Assembly: GCA_037143175.1 (NCBI GenBank)
Contig: JBAWZF010000002.1
Span: 1-64,000 of the forward strand
Direction: 5' to 3'
From: a bacterium
Lineage (GTDB): Bacteria > Verrucomicrobiota > Kiritimatiellia > CAIKKV01 > CAITUY01
DNA length: 64,000 nt
Shown here: positions 1,384-44,307 of the stretch, piece by piece
How positions within the stretch are numbered: position 1 is the first letter of the stretch
Layout of the letters: every line of letters starts with the position of its first letter
The notes under the pieces: generated by a model
Told to the model about the DNA's origin: nothing
Seen by the model: the letters and a program-made list of their open reading frames with translations, nothing else
Databases searched by the model: none
Program-made: the position numbers and the translations under genes

Positions 1384-2571
1384 CTATGCCAGGTCTTGAT
1401 AAATATCCACCATCGCTGCGATCATACGTTCTCTCGAGAAACACTCGTTTGCACGTTTTATTCCGTTAATACCGAACCGCGCGCAGTCTTCAGGATGATC
1501 TACAAGATGTTGAATCGCCAACGCTAAAGCCCGGGAATCTCCAGACGGAACCACTAATCCAGTTTCACCATCAATATTGATCTCGGGTAAGGGACCAAAA
1601 TCTGACGTTATAAGCGGCAATCCAAACGCCATCGCCTCAGCCAATACAAAGCCAAAACTCTCATGACTTACAGACGGCAACACCAAACAATGAGCCTGTT
1701 TGTACAGAGTTTCCATATCCTCCCGGTGCCCGACAAAACTAATCGATGACGAACATTCCTGTTCAAACGCAAGAGACTTCAGCATTTTCTCATCTGAACC
1801 ATCCCCGGCAATGATCAATCTGACCCGCTGGTCATTCAACAAGCCGAACGCTTGGATTAGAACATCGAAACCCTTCATTGGGTGCAATCTACCAACCGCC
1901 AAGACACAAAACGGCTCAGTAATACAACGCACAGAACGATTGTCGGTCTGGTATTTTAACAGGTCGATTCCATTCCACACCATCCTACATCGACGAGACG
2001 GCAAACCACTCAACCCACGCCAGGCATCAATGCATGCCTGAGACATCCCCCCCATTATGGTATAACTCCAGCATGTCCATCGATTCAGCCAGCGTCTCAA
2101 GGGTGTTGGATCACGACACGGCATTATGCAATGCCAGCCGACAGAAGGAATACCATTCAAGCGACACGCCAATCCGGCAACTTCATAACCATTCAAGTTG
2201 ATATGCATTACATCAACGGGAAACTGTCGAAACAATCGCCTCAAATACATCACCTCCCCGACATTACCTGCTAACAATTTGGCCCAATCAGGGACTAGCC
2301 GTCGTATTATTTTGCAAAGCCTATCAGTTTTCCTGTTGTCACTATCCGCAAAACAAGGAGGTTCTCCTGTCGATAAATCCGCCAACGGACTGCAGTTTCT
2401 CCAGGAAATACCCTCAATGCATGCGTCGTGTGCTTCCCGCCATAGACGAGTACCTTTAACCCCAAACAACACCGGCACATGTCCTGCATCCCGAATCCCT
2501 ATCATCAGGGATAGCAGATATGTCTCCGACCCTCCCCAACCTTCAATTGATGTAAAGAAACCTATTTTCAT
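1384..2571 (-). CDS. Glycosyltransferase family 4
   Basis: A GT-B fold glycosyltransferase that should transfer a sugar from a nucleotide donor to the growing surface glycan in the cytoplasm. The N-terminal GWGGSETYLLSL (residues 11-22) is the usual GT4 glycine-rich acceptor-side loop. The C-terminal ESFGFVLAE (E304 and E312) is the E-x7-E motif that binds the donor, followed by GETGLVVPSGD. Length (395 residues) is normal. The start codon overlaps the stop of the upstream glycosyltransferase by four bases, so the two are probably translationally coupled. This is the last gene of the minus-strand locus and converges on the YdcF-like gene 45 bases away. Sugar specificity cannot be read from sequence. 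Confidence 0.9.
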   Translation of the reverse strand: MKIGFFTSIEGWGGSETYLLSLMIGIRDAGHVPVLFGVKGTRLWREAHDACIEGISWRNCSPLADLSTGEPPCFADSDNRKTDRLCKIIRRLVPDWAKLLAGNVGEVMYLRRLFRQFPVDVMHINLNGYEVAGLACRLNGIPSVGWHCIMPCRDPTPLRRWLNRWTCWSYTIMGGMSQACIDAWRGLSGLPSRRCRMVWNGIDLLKYQTDNRSVRCITEPFCVLAVGRLHPMKGFDVLIQAFGLLNDQRVRLIIAGDGSDEKMLKSLAFEQECSSSISFVGHREDMETLYKQAHCLVLPSVSHESFGFVLAEAMAFGLPLITSDFGPLPEINIDGETGLVVPSGDSRALALAIQHLVDHPEDCARFGINGIKRANECFSRERMIAAMVDIYQDLA

Positions 2572-3890
2572 CGTTTACCCTTCATATCCAAATCCATGAA
2601 ATAGGACTCATATCTGCGAATCATCCGCTCAACCGTAAAGCAGTCTTCCCATCGTTGCCGCCCATTCTTACCCAATCGCTGTCGTTCAACTACTGAGGAC
2701 GTCAAATAACAGACGCCATCAGCCACCTTTTCATAATCATTCGGACTAACCAGCAGTCCCGTCTCTTCATGTACAACAATCTCAGGAATCCCCCCCATAC
2801 GGCTCGCCAAAACCGGTTTTTCACGACTCATGGCCTCAAGCAGTGTCAGCCCAAAGGCCTCAGGCTCTGACGACAATAGGACTGCCACATTAGCAGCATT
2901 GAAATATCGATCCGCATTGGGCCGCCCGCCCATGAACACCACACAGGACCCGAGGCCAGCCTCCTCTGCATCCCGTCGGACCGCATCAAGACATTGCCCA
3001 TCACCGATCAATACCAGTCGGGCGCATCTTTCACCCCGCTTGATAACCTCCCGCCATACCCGAATAAGACTCCCCTGCCCTTTCCAGCTCACAAATCGGG
3101 CCACACACAGGAAATCAACAATCCCTTCCTGCCGGGAAGGATAATCATCAGGAATGGACAAATCAGGAGGTTCGGTGCCAAGATGTATAACACGTCCCTT
3201 GGACGAGGGAAGACCCAACTTGCCAGCCCATTCACGCCGGGAAGATCCGGAATTGTAGAGAATGTCGTTAAGGCTCCAATAGCAGGCCCGCTCGACCCAA
3301 CGCCGTACCCAGTGATTCGCCTCAGCCCCATTCCCAGGATGCGTATGGCTGATTGCCACAATTCGGGCAAGAGGAAAAACCAACCGGAGAGCAACGGGAA
3401 GCGTCTCGCATCCAAATTGATTGGTAAGGATAAAACGATGCCGGCATTGCCCGCGAACCGCCCATACCCGCCGGATGTCTATCCAAAGGAGTTTTAAGTA
3501 ACCCCAAAAAAGAGATAGAGATACAGGCTTTATATGAACTGTAGTAGCCGCTGTCCCCAGCGGCGCTCTTTCGTCCGTTGCCGGTGGGGTCACCGGCCCT
3601 ACATGTGCTCCGCTCTCACTATCTTCTCGATTCTTGTAGTAGCGGCTGTCCTCAGCCGCGCTCTTCCCGACCATGCCGGTGAGGACACCGGCCCTACATT
3701 GTGCTCCGCTCACTTCTGGCTCATAATTCCCATGAGGAATCTCTACTACCCTGAAACTATCCCCATACTCACAGAACCCATCAGCCATTTGACGCACAAA
3801 TGTCGTCACCCCGCTGGGCAGCATGTCCACCAGTGAAGGCATAATGAAGGCGATTTTGGGGAATTGGGGAATTGGTTGCATTCGTTTCAT
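2568..3890 (-). CDS. Glycosyltransferase family 4 with an in-frame palindromic-repeat insert
   Basis: A GT4 enzyme. The N-terminal motif PSGVTTFVRQM (25-35) and the C-terminal EAFGLTLLE (E344 and E352) define the family. Residues about 61-118 are not family-like. They are the translation of two tandem palindromic repeat units at 3540-3619 and 3635-3712, related to the intergenic repeat beside wzm (42562-42630). The insert keeps the frame and falls between the N-terminal strand region and the rest of the acceptor domain, perhaps in a surface loop. Without it the protein would be about 380 residues, the usual GT4 size. Whether the enzyme is active is uncertain. It overlaps the next glycosyltransferase gene by four bases. 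Confidence 0.85.
   Translation of the reverse strand: MKRMQPIPQFPKIAFIMPSLVDMLPSGVTTFVRQMADGFCEYGDSFRVVEIPHGNYEPEVSGAQCRAGVLTGMVGKSAAEDSRYYKNREDSESGAHVGPVTPPATDERAPLGTAATTVHIKPVSLSLFWGYLKLLWIDIRRVWAVRGQCRHRFILTNQFGCETLPVALRLVFPLARIVAISHTHPGNGAEANHWVRRWVERACYWSLNDILYNSGSSRREWAGKLGLPSSKGRVIHLGTEPPDLSIPDDYPSRQEGIVDFLCVARFVSWKGQGSLIRVWREVIKRGERCARLVLIGDGQCLDAVRRDAEEAGLGSCVVFMGGRPNADRYFNAANVAVLLSSEPEAFGLTLLEAMSREKPVLASRMGGIPEIVVHEETGLLVSPNDYEKVADGVCYLTSSVVERQRLGKNGRQRWEDCFTVERMIRRYESYFMDLDMKGKR
3540..3712. repeat. Two tandem palindromic repeat units inside a glycosyltransferase gene
   Basis: Two direct copies begin at about 3540 and 3635, each reading GTAGTAGC then a GC hairpin, GGACACCGGCCCTACAT (GGGTCACCGG in the first) and GTGCTCCGCT. 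Each contains inverted arms such as CCGCTGTCC...CAGCGG. A one-unit relative is intergenic at 42562-42630. The two copies differ at several bases, so the duplication is not brand new. Confidence 0.8.
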
Positions 3891-3964
3891 TGGAGATTAT
3901 GAAAGCTCGGAGCATTATTACACAACAACTTATCAAAATGACAACTCAACAACTCTCTGCTAGC

Positions 3965-4108
3965 AGCCTGTCGAAAAAAAATGTCTCAAATGTGGGAGGC
4001 GCACTCCGTGCGGCGATAGTTCATTATAGGCGCTCATATGGGCCTGTCGCGGCAGGGACTGCCCCTCCCACATTGAAGAAAGAATGCCCGCAAGTGTTTT
4101 TCAACACG
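3965..4108. mobile_element. MITE-like 140-bp element, copy 1
   Basis: The left end AGCCTGTCGAAAAA and the right end GTGTTTTTCAACA are imperfect inverted repeats. The interior carries GTGGGAGGCGCACTCCG and TGGGCCTGTCGCGGC hairpin arms and the inverted pair ATGTGGGAGG/CCTCCCACAT. A second copy at 44171-44307 shares almost the whole sequence. No coding capacity, so movement would need a transposase in trans. The right end of this copy overlaps the stop codon of the GT2 gene. Confidence 0.75.
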
Positions 4109-5174
4109 CCACTAAAGGCTCCGGTGGCCAGGGAACGTGCCAATCTTGGATGAGTTGCCTCACATAATGCTCTTCATTGCCAAAATCATCCTGATTCCAG
4201 GTCAGTCCCGTCGCAATCCTCCGCCTCAAATATCCTGGCTCGTGGAGACTCGCATAAGCCAACCCCTGCAGGAACGCCCACGGTTTGGTTAGGAACGTTG
4301 AGCGATCTAACCCGATGCGTTTATAATACTGTCCCCTAACATTCCTCAGGATTCTCTCACGCCACCGGACATCCCTCTTCCACTCATTTGGTAACCGGTC
4401 CTCGCAGGCCGCCAATGTTTCCGCAGAAAGCATCCAATTGCGCCTCACATCCATGATGGATGGGCGAAGCCGCGACGCCTGCATGGAGTGCTGGCGCCAG
4501 GTGGCCAAACAGTCAGGGATGGAAAGCGTATCAGTCACCAAACAAGCCTTCATCGCCCACAATCGGTCCGCGCACGTCCCGCAATCCGCCCGAAAAAAAC
4601 CAATTTTATCAATCAGACGCCGCCGGATCACCACCGAGGTAATTGAGGTCCATGAAGGGCAGTCCAACCCCACATGCACCAGAAACTCGAGCAAACCATT
4701 GCGGCGATGCACCTTATCCCGCCATGGATCATAAAAGGCGCCCACTTGCGGAAATGGCGGGGGCGACATTTCCAGCCCGGCTTGATCAATGAACACAAAC
4801 TTACAAACCACCAGATCCACATCGGGATGCTTTTCCAACACCCCGACCATTCGTTCCAACAGATCCGGATTTGCAGTATCATCGCTTGTCGCAACATACA
4901 CATACTGCCCTTGCGCGCGCTTCAAACACTCATTCCATCCTGCATACACACCTTCCCGCGGAATCTGGGACAGCTGCACGCGTGGATCATTACGAAATTG
5001 TTGAAAATATTCCCATGCCCCATCACTCGAATAACTATCACATACAACCAGTTCCCAGTCCCGCAGGGTCTGGTCGAAAATCGAGGCCATCCGTGCCTCC
5101 AAAAAAGGGCGGGTATTCAGATTGGGTAGACAAATGGAGACGAGGGGTATAGAACTAGAGGCCATAGAAATCAT
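4101..5174 (-). CDS. Glycosyltransferase family 2
   Basis: A GT-A fold transferase. The N-terminal VSICLPNLNTRPFL (12-25) is the nucleotide-binding strand, ELVVCDSYSSDG (41-52) is the GT2 consensus with the second aspartate region, and ATSDDT (95-100) carries the metal-binding DD. The last residues, PLVAC, and the TGA stop run into the terminal inverted repeat of the MITE-like element at 3965-4108, so the original C terminus may have been longer. The start is ATG at 5174; a second ATG three codons in is possible. No membrane segment is visible, consistent with a cytoplasmic enzyme of the glycan locus. Confidence 0.88.
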   Translation of the reverse strand: MISMASSSIPLVSICLPNLNTRPFLEARMASIFDQTLRDWELVVCDSYSSDGAWEYFQQFRNDPRVQLSQIPREGVYAGWNECLKRAQGQYVYVATSDDTANPDLLERMVGVLEKHPDVDLVVCKFVFIDQAGLEMSPPPFPQVGAFYDPWRDKVHRRNGLLEFLVHVGLDCPSWTSITSVVIRRRLIDKIGFFRADCGTCADRLWAMKACLVTDTLSIPDCLATWRQHSMQASRLRPSIMDVRRNWMLSAETLAACEDRLPNEWKRDVRWRERILRNVRGQYYKRIGLDRSTFLTKPWAFLQGLAYASLHEPGYLRRRIATGLTWNQDDFGNEEHYVRQLIQDWHVPWPPEPLVAC

Positions 5175-41653: not shown

Positions 41654-42547
41654 TCACACCATTCTCTCTATCAGCTTGTCCTCACTCACATAGAACAGGC
41701 GCCATGAAATCATGAATAGCACCAGAGAGATCGTCGCCGCTATAAAGTAGCCTTTGGGGTGATATAAATGACCATAAATGATCATATCCCGGCAGGAACA
41801 CACCAAGTAGGTCAATGGATTCCATCGATTGATGAGTTGAAGCCCCTCACTGCTATTGCTGGCAGAATAGATGATCGGCGTGGTGTACATCAAAATACTC
41901 ATGCCAATATCTACCATTCGACTGAGGTCATATGCCACTACCGAGATCATCGACACCATAAGCCCCACCGCTGTCGCCAAAAAGAACAACGGCAGCGCTA
42001 CCAGGGGAAGTAACAGTATCCCCCAACTGGGGACAACATGAAAGGCCAGCAAAACACAGATATTCATCACGAAACCGATCAGATAATTGGCCAATTGGGT
42101 GGCAAGTTGTTTGAATAAAAGGGCTTCATGGGGGTAATTCACCTGCATCAATAACCCACCACCCGCCGATAGCGTGGATGATGCAGATCCGAAAAAGCCA
42201 ATAAAAAGCGCCCACATTGAGGTACCGATCAGCACATACGCCGGATAGGGAATACCAACATCACCCGGCTTCAACAACCCAGTCTTCTGGAGGAATATCC
42301 AAGATACAATCCCCAAAATCGGAGAAACAAAAACCCAGGAAAAGCCGACAAAAGACTTCTTGTAGCCCGCCAGAAAGTCGCGCTTAAATAACTGCCAGAT
42401 CAGCTCGCGCGCCCCCCAGACATTGCGGGACATGACCGCCCAAGTTTGAAAGAACCCAAGCTCATGCCGCATATTAGGGCGATAAACGGTGATCTTTGGA
42501 GAGTCGTTAGATGTGAAACCCGAAGTGTGAGAAGTGCTCATAGTCAA
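41654..42547 (-). CDS. wzm: Polysaccharide ABC exporter permease (Wzm)
   Basis: An ABC-2 type permease with six membrane segments. ELIWQLFKRDFLAGYKKSF near residue 50 is the amphipathic coupling region before the first helix, and SFVGFSWVFVSPILGIVSW, STLSAGGGLLMQVNYPHEAL and LINRWNPLTYLVCSCRDMI are conserved family segments. It forms the channel that works with Wzt. The intact wzt is about 8 kb downstream and only a wzt fragment remains close by. The N-terminal 30 residues are variable. Confidence 0.9.
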   Translation of the reverse strand: MTMSTSHTSGFTSNDSPKITVYRPNMRHELGFFQTWAVMSRNVWGARELIWQLFKRDFLAGYKKSFVGFSWVFVSPILGIVSWIFLQKTGLLKPGDVGIPYPAYVLIGTSMWALFIGFFGSASSTLSAGGGLLMQVNYPHEALLFKQLATQLANYLIGFVMNICVLLAFHVVPSWGILLLPLVALPLFFLATAVGLMVSMISVVAYDLSRMVDIGMSILMYTTPIIYSASNSSEGLQLINRWNPLTYLVCSCRDMIIYGHLYHPKGYFIAATISLVLFMISWRLFYVSEDKLIERMV

Positions 42548-42561
42548 TTACTTGTCTTTAT

Positions 42562-42630
42562 TGTAGTAGCCGGTGTCCTCACCGGCGCTTTTGTATTGTC
42601 ATCACCGCTGAGGACAGCGGTTACTACATT
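42562..42630. repeat. GTAGTAGC palindromic repeat, intergenic copy
   Basis: TTGTAGTAGCCGGTGTCC then CCGCTGAGGACAGCGGTTAC form two small hairpins with inverted outer ends (TGTAGTA and TACTACA). This is the intergenic form of the repeat inserted twice in the glycosyltransferase gene at 3540-3712. It lies upstream of wzm. Confidence 0.75.
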
Positions 42631-42708: not shown

Positions 42709-44028
42709 CTACCCGCCATAGGCCCTATTTAGCACCAATACGGATGCATAGATATAGGCAATGCTCCCCAGTGTTGCCAGAGTACCCGTCACCATCACAT
42801 CCTTCCGGAAATTTATAAGTGGAGGATAATCCTCCGGAAGATATCGCTGAGCAATTACCGGAATGGCATTCATTAAACCAAACAGGAAGAAAAAGGGATA
42901 AACATAGGCACGGCTCAGAAAATATGAAGACGCGGCAAATCCAGCCATGGCTACAATACTCAGTCCTGATAGACGCTTCAAATAAGATTGCGCCCCATTC
43001 CTGGGTCGCTTAAACACAGCCCGCGTCCGCCAACACCCAATCACCCCAAGTGACAAAAGATTGAACCAGAACCAATACCCAATCAACCCGAGTTCCGCAT
43101 AACAGCATACAAAGGCATTATGCGCCGCCCGGTCTGTACCGGTAATTTCAGCAAACATACCATACCCCCCTCCAAAGAGCATGTTAATCGGACTGCTCTT
43201 AAAATACCTGTTAGCATAACCCCAAAAAACAATCCGATCCCGTGCCGACATATCTAATAGGGAAGAACCAAATACTGCACAAAACCCTAACCCTGCCACC
43301 AAACCTATCGCCGCTAGATAGGGCATCCACTTTACAGGGAAGCGTAAAAGCAACATGCAGGCCAACATCGCAAACACTCCCACTAAGGTCCCGCGCGAAT
43401 GCGTTGTCAGGAGTGCCTCGGCAACAAACCACACCACTCCCGCCGCCATCAGGAACGTAATGGGATTCATGCGCCTGGGAAAGGCAAATACGAAAGGGAT
43501 CGCCAACCCGAGAAATTGCCCCATATCATTCGGATCCGAGAAGATGCCGAAGAACAGGGTTTGTATGATTAATTTATGCTTATCTGAATTCCACCAAACT
43601 ATCGGCCCCGATCCCGCGAAACCAACCCCCGTGTTGTATTGAAGAATAGCGTGAACCGACATCACAACTGCCGCCATCACAAAGATCAACACGACCAGCC
43701 GCGCACGATTTATTTGATTGATCACCACCAGCAGTAACACCAAAAGAAGAGATATTTTAAATGTTGGTACAATGGTGTTTATAGCCCCTTGGAAATAGGT
43801 GTGCGCCACATGAGACATTATGGCTGCAAACCAGAGCCCCACGGCCAGCTTCACTGCAGGGGTTTTCGGCATGGTGATGCTTTTCTGGCTAGCCTCCATA
43901 ATCAGCCCTAGCAAAGCCGCATACACCACCCCGCTCAGCACCGGCACGCCATACATCCAAGGAAGCAGCCACTCCTGCGGACGCCAGAAAACAAGCCAGA
44001 TGAAAATGAGGGTGAGGGGGAAGGTCAT
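42709..44028 (-). CDS. O-antigen ligase/polymerase-like membrane protein (Wzy_C family)
   Basis: A polytopic protein with about 11 membrane segments. HNAFVCCYAELGLIGYWFW is the conserved loop and helix of O-antigen ligase family proteins, and TTHSRGTLVG is the other family hallmark. It may ligate the exported glycan to a lipid carrier or act as a polymerase. The ATG at 44028 is preceded by AAGGTG; the longer frame to 44061 starts in a tandem repeat. It is the first gene of the minus-strand locus. Confidence 0.85.
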   Translation of the reverse strand: MTFPLTLIFIWLVFWRPQEWLLPWMYGVPVLSGVVYAALLGLIMEASQKSITMPKTPAVKLAVGLWFAAIMSHVAHTYFQGAINTIVPTFKISLLLVLLLVVINQINRARLVVLIFVMAAVVMSVHAILQYNTGVGFAGSGPIVWWNSDKHKLIIQTLFFGIFSDPNDMGQFLGLAIPFVFAFPRRMNPITFLMAAGVVWFVAEALLTTHSRGTLVGVFAMLACMLLLRFPVKWMPYLAAIGLVAGLGFCAVFGSSLLDMSARDRIVFWGYANRYFKSSPINMLFGGGYGMFAEITGTDRAAHNAFVCCYAELGLIGYWFWFNLLSLGVIGCWRTRAVFKRPRNGAQSYLKRLSGLSIVAMAGFAASSYFLSRAYVYPFFFLFGLMNAIPVIAQRYLPEDYPPLINFRKDVMVTGTLATLGSIAYIYASVLVLNRAYGG

Positions 44029-44052
44029 TTTCGCACCTTGGGGGTGCGGAAA

Positions 44053-44092
44053 TGAGACCATAGACCATAGACCTTAGACCTTAGACCTTTAG
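44053..44092. repeat. Short tandem repeat (AGACCTTAGACC)
   Basis: About four copies of a 10-base unit AGACC(A/T)TAG lie directly upstream of the O-antigen ligase-like gene. A degenerate form (AAAGTCTGGAGTCTACGG) occurs after the gene at about 42676-42693. Length variation here could affect expression of the first gene of the locus. Confidence 0.6.
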
Positions 44093-44170
44093 GAGAATGC
44101 AAGATGCGATTCATGTCGATTTTGGGGATTATTCCTATCGGAAGAAATGAATGACTTAGTGACTTAGGAG

Positions 44171-44307
44171 CCTGTCGAAAAACAGATGTCTTCAATGTGG
44201 GAGGCGCACTCCGTGCGGCGATAGTTCATTTTAGGCGCTCATATGAGCCTGTCGCGCCCCTCCCACATTGAAAAAAGAATACCAGCAAGTGTTTTTCAAC
44301 AGGCTGT
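44171..44307. mobile_element. MITE-like 140-bp element, copy 2
   Basis: The left end AGCCTGTCGAAAAAC and the right end GTTTTTCAACAGGCT are inverted repeats with one mismatch in 15. The interior matches copy 1 at 3965-4108, including GGAGGCGCACTCCGTGCGG and CTCCCACATTGAA, but lacks the short GGCAGGGACTG segment. It separates the ligase-like gene from the accessory strip. Confidence 0.8.

Follow-up and report, generated by a model that had tools for sequence, protein, structure and literature searches.

GTAG-tagged REP dimers in frame within a GT4 glycosyltransferase gene, in an environmental genus with many in-gene REPs

REPs are named and treated as extragenic elements, and Rickettsia provides the textbook case of palindromes within coding sequence. 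The Rickettsia palindromic elements, as far as the work of Ogata et al. (2000, 2002) is summarised in PMC10969869, are about 150 bp long and have a conserved encoded peptide. A 2013 survey (Di Nocera, De Gregorio and Rocco, PMC3733652) had already listed intragenic in-frame GTAG REPs from several species, among them double dimers within one gene. Most REPs in that survey were intergenic, Opitutus terrae (PVC superphylum) was the richest in intragenic GTAG REPs, UvrD/RecB-type genes were among the hosts, and RPE-4/6 were reported to be CGTC-tagged (PMC3733652). The element described here is a GTAG REP by the published definition. The initial annotation of this DNA had presented an in-frame palindromic insertion in a lineage, and with a repeat, unlike those of Rickettsia. 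This is borne out: homologues lack the segment, five of the seven sites of the repeat in this genome are in ORFs, and the tag is GTAG, not the CGTC of RPE-4/RPE-6. In-gene REPs outside Rickettsia were, however, already known (PMC3733652).

The window (i.e., the whole 64,000-nt stretch that was analysed) contains a GT4 glycosyltransferase ORF of 440 aa on the minus strand (2568–3890; Glycos_transf_1, E = 1.8e-31), in which a repeat block encodes 58 residues (61–118). This block had been annotated as tandem palindromic repeats in frame, and both its coordinates and its frame were correct. The two 65-nt tandem units (3540–3604 and 3635–3699) are 83% identical and 95 nt apart, their homology runs on to 3615 and 3711, and both share the same 12-nt GAGCGGAGCACA prefix. 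Each unit comprises two facing hairpins, in which a 5'-GTAG and one or two unpaired bases lead into a GC-rich stem of 7 bp with a loop of 4 nt, with unpaired GTAG(TA) or GTAG(G) preceding the stem in 4/4 hairpins of the insert. In coding order, the first REP dimer (3635–3711, minus strand) has a hairpin at 3634–3661(+) facing one at 3673–3699(−) and encodes VSGAQCRAGVLTGMVGKSAAEDSRYYK, and the second (3540–3615, minus strand) has a GTAG hairpin at 3539–3566(+) facing 3578–3604(−), carries an 11-nt tail and encodes ESGAHVGPVTPPATDERAPLGTAATT. The 19-nt spacer between them (3616–3634, minus strand) encodes approximately KNRED, is single-copy and may be native loop sequence. As also noted initially, the same repeat lies beside wzm: an intergenic dimer of the same family (42561–42629, plus strand; hairpins 42561–42588(+) and 42602–42629(−)) is located between a wzm-like ORF (41654–42547) and a 450-aa membrane ORF (42709–44061).

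All three dimers in the window are head-to-head heterodimers with their GTAG termini outside, and the element mostly occurs as such dimers, of approximately 65 nt. The stems differ by compensatory changes (GCCGCTG/CAGCGGC, GCGGCTG/CAGCCGC and GCCGGTG/CACCGGC), hence the palindrome itself is what the repeats have in common. Stem and loop lengths lie within the limits for GTAG REPs (stem 5–13 bp, loop 2–20 nt), and a 7-pair model (R1) recovers all copies. The repeat pattern was matched four times in the window and never in 100 dinucleotide-preserving shuffles, and the folding z-score of the GT4 repeat region relative to shuffles was −5.4, which together exclude a chance origin of the repeats. 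An Rfam scan of the repeat region found no family. A different palindromic family (GTGGGAGGCGCACTCCGTGCGGC) adjoins the GT4 gene (window 3961–4109, and also 44165–44304), and a relative of it occurs in frame within an 895-aa ORF elsewhere (L061:12774–12861).

The host protein has a Glycos_transf_1 domain and a GT-B fold, and its predicted model resembles BshA-type GT4 structures. Catalytic-domain residues are kept, with E344 and K270 invariant and E352 nearly invariant (alignment A4). The AlphaFold model, which was built from a 15-sequence alignment after a 3-sequence alignment had given a poor model, has a mean pLDDT of 80.5. Residues 55–117 form its only long segment below 50, and the remainder of the fold is confident. 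Across the repeat block, which is situated between strand E46–51 and helix H121–144, pLDDT is 34–45. Based on this model, the insert most plausibly forms a disordered loop and leaves the enzyme intact, so that it very probably still works with its loop extended.

A search of the genome collection for homologues of the GT4 returned only two genes, both from a family relative (record LaPlata_bin-2000), and no close orthologue was found within its genus. One homologue (L018; 49% identity, related genus) has a matching context, adjoining a GT2 gene of the same type, and is without the insert, as is the second (L010). The expectation that residues 61–118 would be missing from homologues was thus upheld by alignment to the two nearest. 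Upstream of the insert, residues 16–54 can be aligned to the N-terminal end of the homologue, showing that the insert is internal; a mis-called start codon was ruled out. The statement that the repeats add about 58 residues stands for what the block encodes, but not for the net gain, because the two nearest homologues have longer native loops: G54 to L127 spans 72 residues in the GT4 and the equivalent native loop 30–34, giving a net lengthening of approximately 38–42 residues. The GT4 either lost residues of its native loop or had a short loop to begin with. In a GH20 gene of the genus, the same REP is common to three species and replaces approximately 13 native residues, which indicates that insertion can bring loss, and this may have happened likewise in the GT4. 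The insert-free homologue L018 has its own 48-residue insert in another loop (L018:1311–1515), a low-complexity repeat of ATTGGGGAATGG type, and a repeat similar to this type encodes the first residues of the GT4 in the window (3855–3891).

The wider distribution of the family was assessed by searching genomes with a hairpin covariance model, and the genome-wide picture combines these searches with sampled stretches. This genome has 12 matches at seven sites (E < 0.02), of which 11 have E ≤ 0.01; 11 matches at seven sites is a low copy number compared with REP-rich genomes and provides no evidence of recent mobility. Counting in-gene and intergenic copies, as proposed initially, placed five of the seven sites inside ORFs and two in intergenic sequence. 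The five hosts are the GT4, an FNR-type oxidoreductase, two LacI-type proteins and a type I restriction-like protein. Among congeners, four of five had 9–16 matches and the fifth (G004) had none (E ≤ 0.01), and the family fades outside the taxonomic family. Across five species of the genus, approximately 27 of 41 sites were inside ORFs, 12 were outside and two were unclear, based on manual reading of fetched loci; the count rests on ORF calls with orthologues counted per genome, and counting shared insertions once leaves approximately 20 events. Hosts with Pfam domains include HemW, an AddA-like helicase-nuclease, a histidine kinase, GH20, Ddl-GNAT and a LysM/L,D-transpeptidase. Alignment with a solved structure (4i5s) places the histidine kinase insert in the ATPase domain, between two of its strands.

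Other repeats were also observed in coding sequence. This genome has 16 LacI-domain matches, and LacI-type HTH proteins with long Pro/Glu-rich tails (L052:13084–14532, L053:4306–5730, L049:7323–9206 and L057:1662–2687) occur in congeners too (L082, L089, L092 and L096); genome repeats from several families, read in frame, appear to make up part of these tails. Non-palindromic dispersed repeats of AGTGGGCAGT and CACATCTCACCCCTC types lie in frame within conserved genes (L052:17066–19021 and L050:13278–14564), the hosts being a YgiQ-like radical SAM protein and a GDP-mannose dehydratase-like epimerase. An intergenic GTAG REP in G000:C30 (L075:1501–1552) appears to be interrupted by another short repeat, i.e., a nested insertion.

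Several in-gene REPs have been inherited across species, as inserts in the GH20, histidine kinase, Ddl-GNAT and AddA genes are each common to two or three of them. The AddA-like gene offers one precise empty site: G006 and G007 have a complete dimer of 63 nt that G008, G004, G000 and G005 cleanly lack, and the empty site (CACG^ACAGC) reveals no target duplication. For the GT4, we consider it highly probable that GTAG-tagged REP dimers entered the gene in frame and extended the protein by a disordered loop. Entry would have been into the loop that follows the second beta strand of the N-terminal Rossmann domain, either by two dimers or by a single dimer that then underwent a 95-nt tandem duplication. 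The length of the insert as a whole would have preserved the frame, using frames without stops, and the protein would thereby have gained its putative disordered loop. The insert was presumably near-neutral, and only in-frame, loop-located insertions would survive selection.

As to how the dimers arrived, REPs may move via single-stranded DNA copying by RAYT/Y1 HUH transposases acting in trans. REP-associated transposase homologues were detected in 17/17 genomes of the order, with seven matches in this genome. RAYT/Y1 transposition is expected to leave no target duplication, as for IS200/IS605-type enzymes. Mobilisation of the focal REP by these transposases is something we infer, because the REPtron link was not established for the focal family: no focal-family REPs flanked RAYT genes at the RAYT loci examined (a minority of RAYT matches), the sole exception among these loci being a weak RAYT homologue approximately 1 kb from the C84 dimer. 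In another genus, a RAYT-like transposase gene (G002:C53; L081:1317–2000) carries an in-frame focal REP array between two conserved halves. RAYT loci of relatives (L154:669–771 and L155:21–1041) are accompanied by non-focal tagged hairpins (GTAG-GGCGGCCACG and GGAG-TGCGGGACTACAGTCCCGC).

A possible, though less probable, alternative is that no transposition took place, and that the family spread via template switching or recombination among REP copies, the second GT4 unit arising by tandem duplication. The 95-nt tandem layout with its common prefix would fit such a process, as would the missing REPtron at the examined loci and the AddA-like empty site, although the lack of a target duplication there is equally expected of RAYT/Y1 transposition. 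Copies at unrelated sites, on many contigs and in many species, also speak against it.

Reading frames provide evidence on how the inserts are treated once in a gene. Of the forward units, 21 were in the Val-Val frame, two in the Ser/Cys frame and none in the stop frame, and reverse units used Thr-Thr 12 times, Tyr-Tyr three times and Leu-Leu never (duplicates removed by hand; significance by binomial tests). The bias persisted without the LacI-tail proteins, a group that duplication may have given rise to (11/13, P = 0.011; 10/13, P = 0.0016). This pattern in the sequences argues that the inserts are translated and that bad frames are selected against. Substitutions add a second signal. Five in-gene REPs common between species had accumulated two synonymous changes, whereas windows of equal length elsewhere in these genes predict approximately 17 (P = 5.5e-5), and nine non-synonymous changes, as expected (P = 0.52). 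The conservation was uneven over these few genes and few sites, being strong in AddA, HK and GH20 and weak in Ddl and LacI. Any of four causes could account for it: recent lateral spread, gene conversion, base composition and nucleic-acid constraint.

The synonymous deficit, with non-synonymous change at its expected level, favours the idea that the repeat is kept mainly as a nucleic-acid element (an mRNA hairpin or DNA structure in a polysaccharide operon, or a sequence that gene conversion among REP copies keeps uniform), its peptide being incidental. We regard this as rather unlikely, as the effect comes from few genes and sites and varies among them, the frame bias points to selection at the protein level, and recent lateral spread or a GC-rich mutational bias could yield the same signal. 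In a broader proposal, which is tentative and which we lean against, in-gene palindromes of this genus are an ongoing source of protein-loop evolution. Several independent families would repeatedly enter the same loops of given genes, in frame, in different species, and the coding palindromes would be under a double constraint, at the protein level (frame bias) and at the nucleic-acid level (synonymous conservation).

Insertions at one gene are exemplified by the orthologous FNR-type oxidoreductase genes of four congeners, each of which carries a palindromic repeat of its own within one shared C-terminal stretch (L104:2066–2093, L106:2093–2163, L105:2031–2093 and L107:1332–1475 (minus strand)). 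In G000 this is a GTAG REP in frame, in G005 a 65-nt near-perfect palindrome in frame, in G007 a TGGAGGG repeat next to a TAA stop, and in G008 a GCGGCGGCTTGACGCCGC array, beyond which the protein lacks its C terminus. The broken genes of G007 and G008 illustrate how the GT4 might be becoming a pseudogene whose frame is open by luck, which we consider very unlikely given 440 open codons, intact GT4 motifs and a confident predicted fold. All hairpins are read through although stops close one of the three forward frames. For comparable shared insertions elsewhere, dN/dS of the flanks is well below 0.2: the values for AddA, GH20, the histidine kinase and Ddl-GNAT are 0.09–0.17 (the LacI-tail pair is looser, at 0.40), hence genes with in-frame REPs stay under purifying selection, which by analogy lends indirect support to the integrity of the GT4. 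Also very unlikely is exaptation, i.e., selection of the insert for changing the enzyme (e.g., substrate access or partner binding), since persistence of REP-bearing inserts across species in AddA, GH20, HK and Ddl-GNAT is set against their location in loops of unrelated proteins, the predicted disorder of the GT4 insert, and low-complexity peptides in varying frames.

Entry of REP dimers into coding sequence can now be studied with ordinary comparative data in an environmental genus where genes hold approximately two thirds of one REP family's sites, several of them common to species, and where one precise empty site exists. Such data can test how repeats insert, what proteins tolerate, and whether selection on coding palindromes acts on protein or nucleic acid. 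Compared with classical REP/BIME systems with RAYT (TnpA-REP), the family shares tagged hairpins arranged as inverted pairs and RAYT homologues in the genome, whereas classical REPs are extragenic and flank their own RAYT, a linkage not found for the focal family at the RAYT loci examined. Like Rickettsia palindromic elements, the repeats are dispersed palindromes, many in frame in unrelated genes where the fold tolerates them, but they are set apart, as far as the available RPE descriptions go, by a 27-nt unit, a 65-nt dimer, a GTAG tag and the use of several frames. The closest match is to the GTAG REPs of PMC3733652, with which they share the GTAG tag, short GC-rich stem, short loop, head-to-head heterodimers, in-frame genic copies and double dimers. 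They differ in organism and in stem and loop sequence; orthologous empty and filled sites are available here, and no clear REPtron was found for the focal family at the RAYT loci examined. Moreover, approximately two thirds of sites here are in ORFs, in contrast to the mostly intergenic REPs of that survey. Scale is what stands out: an unusually dense in-gene occurrence of REPs in one genus.
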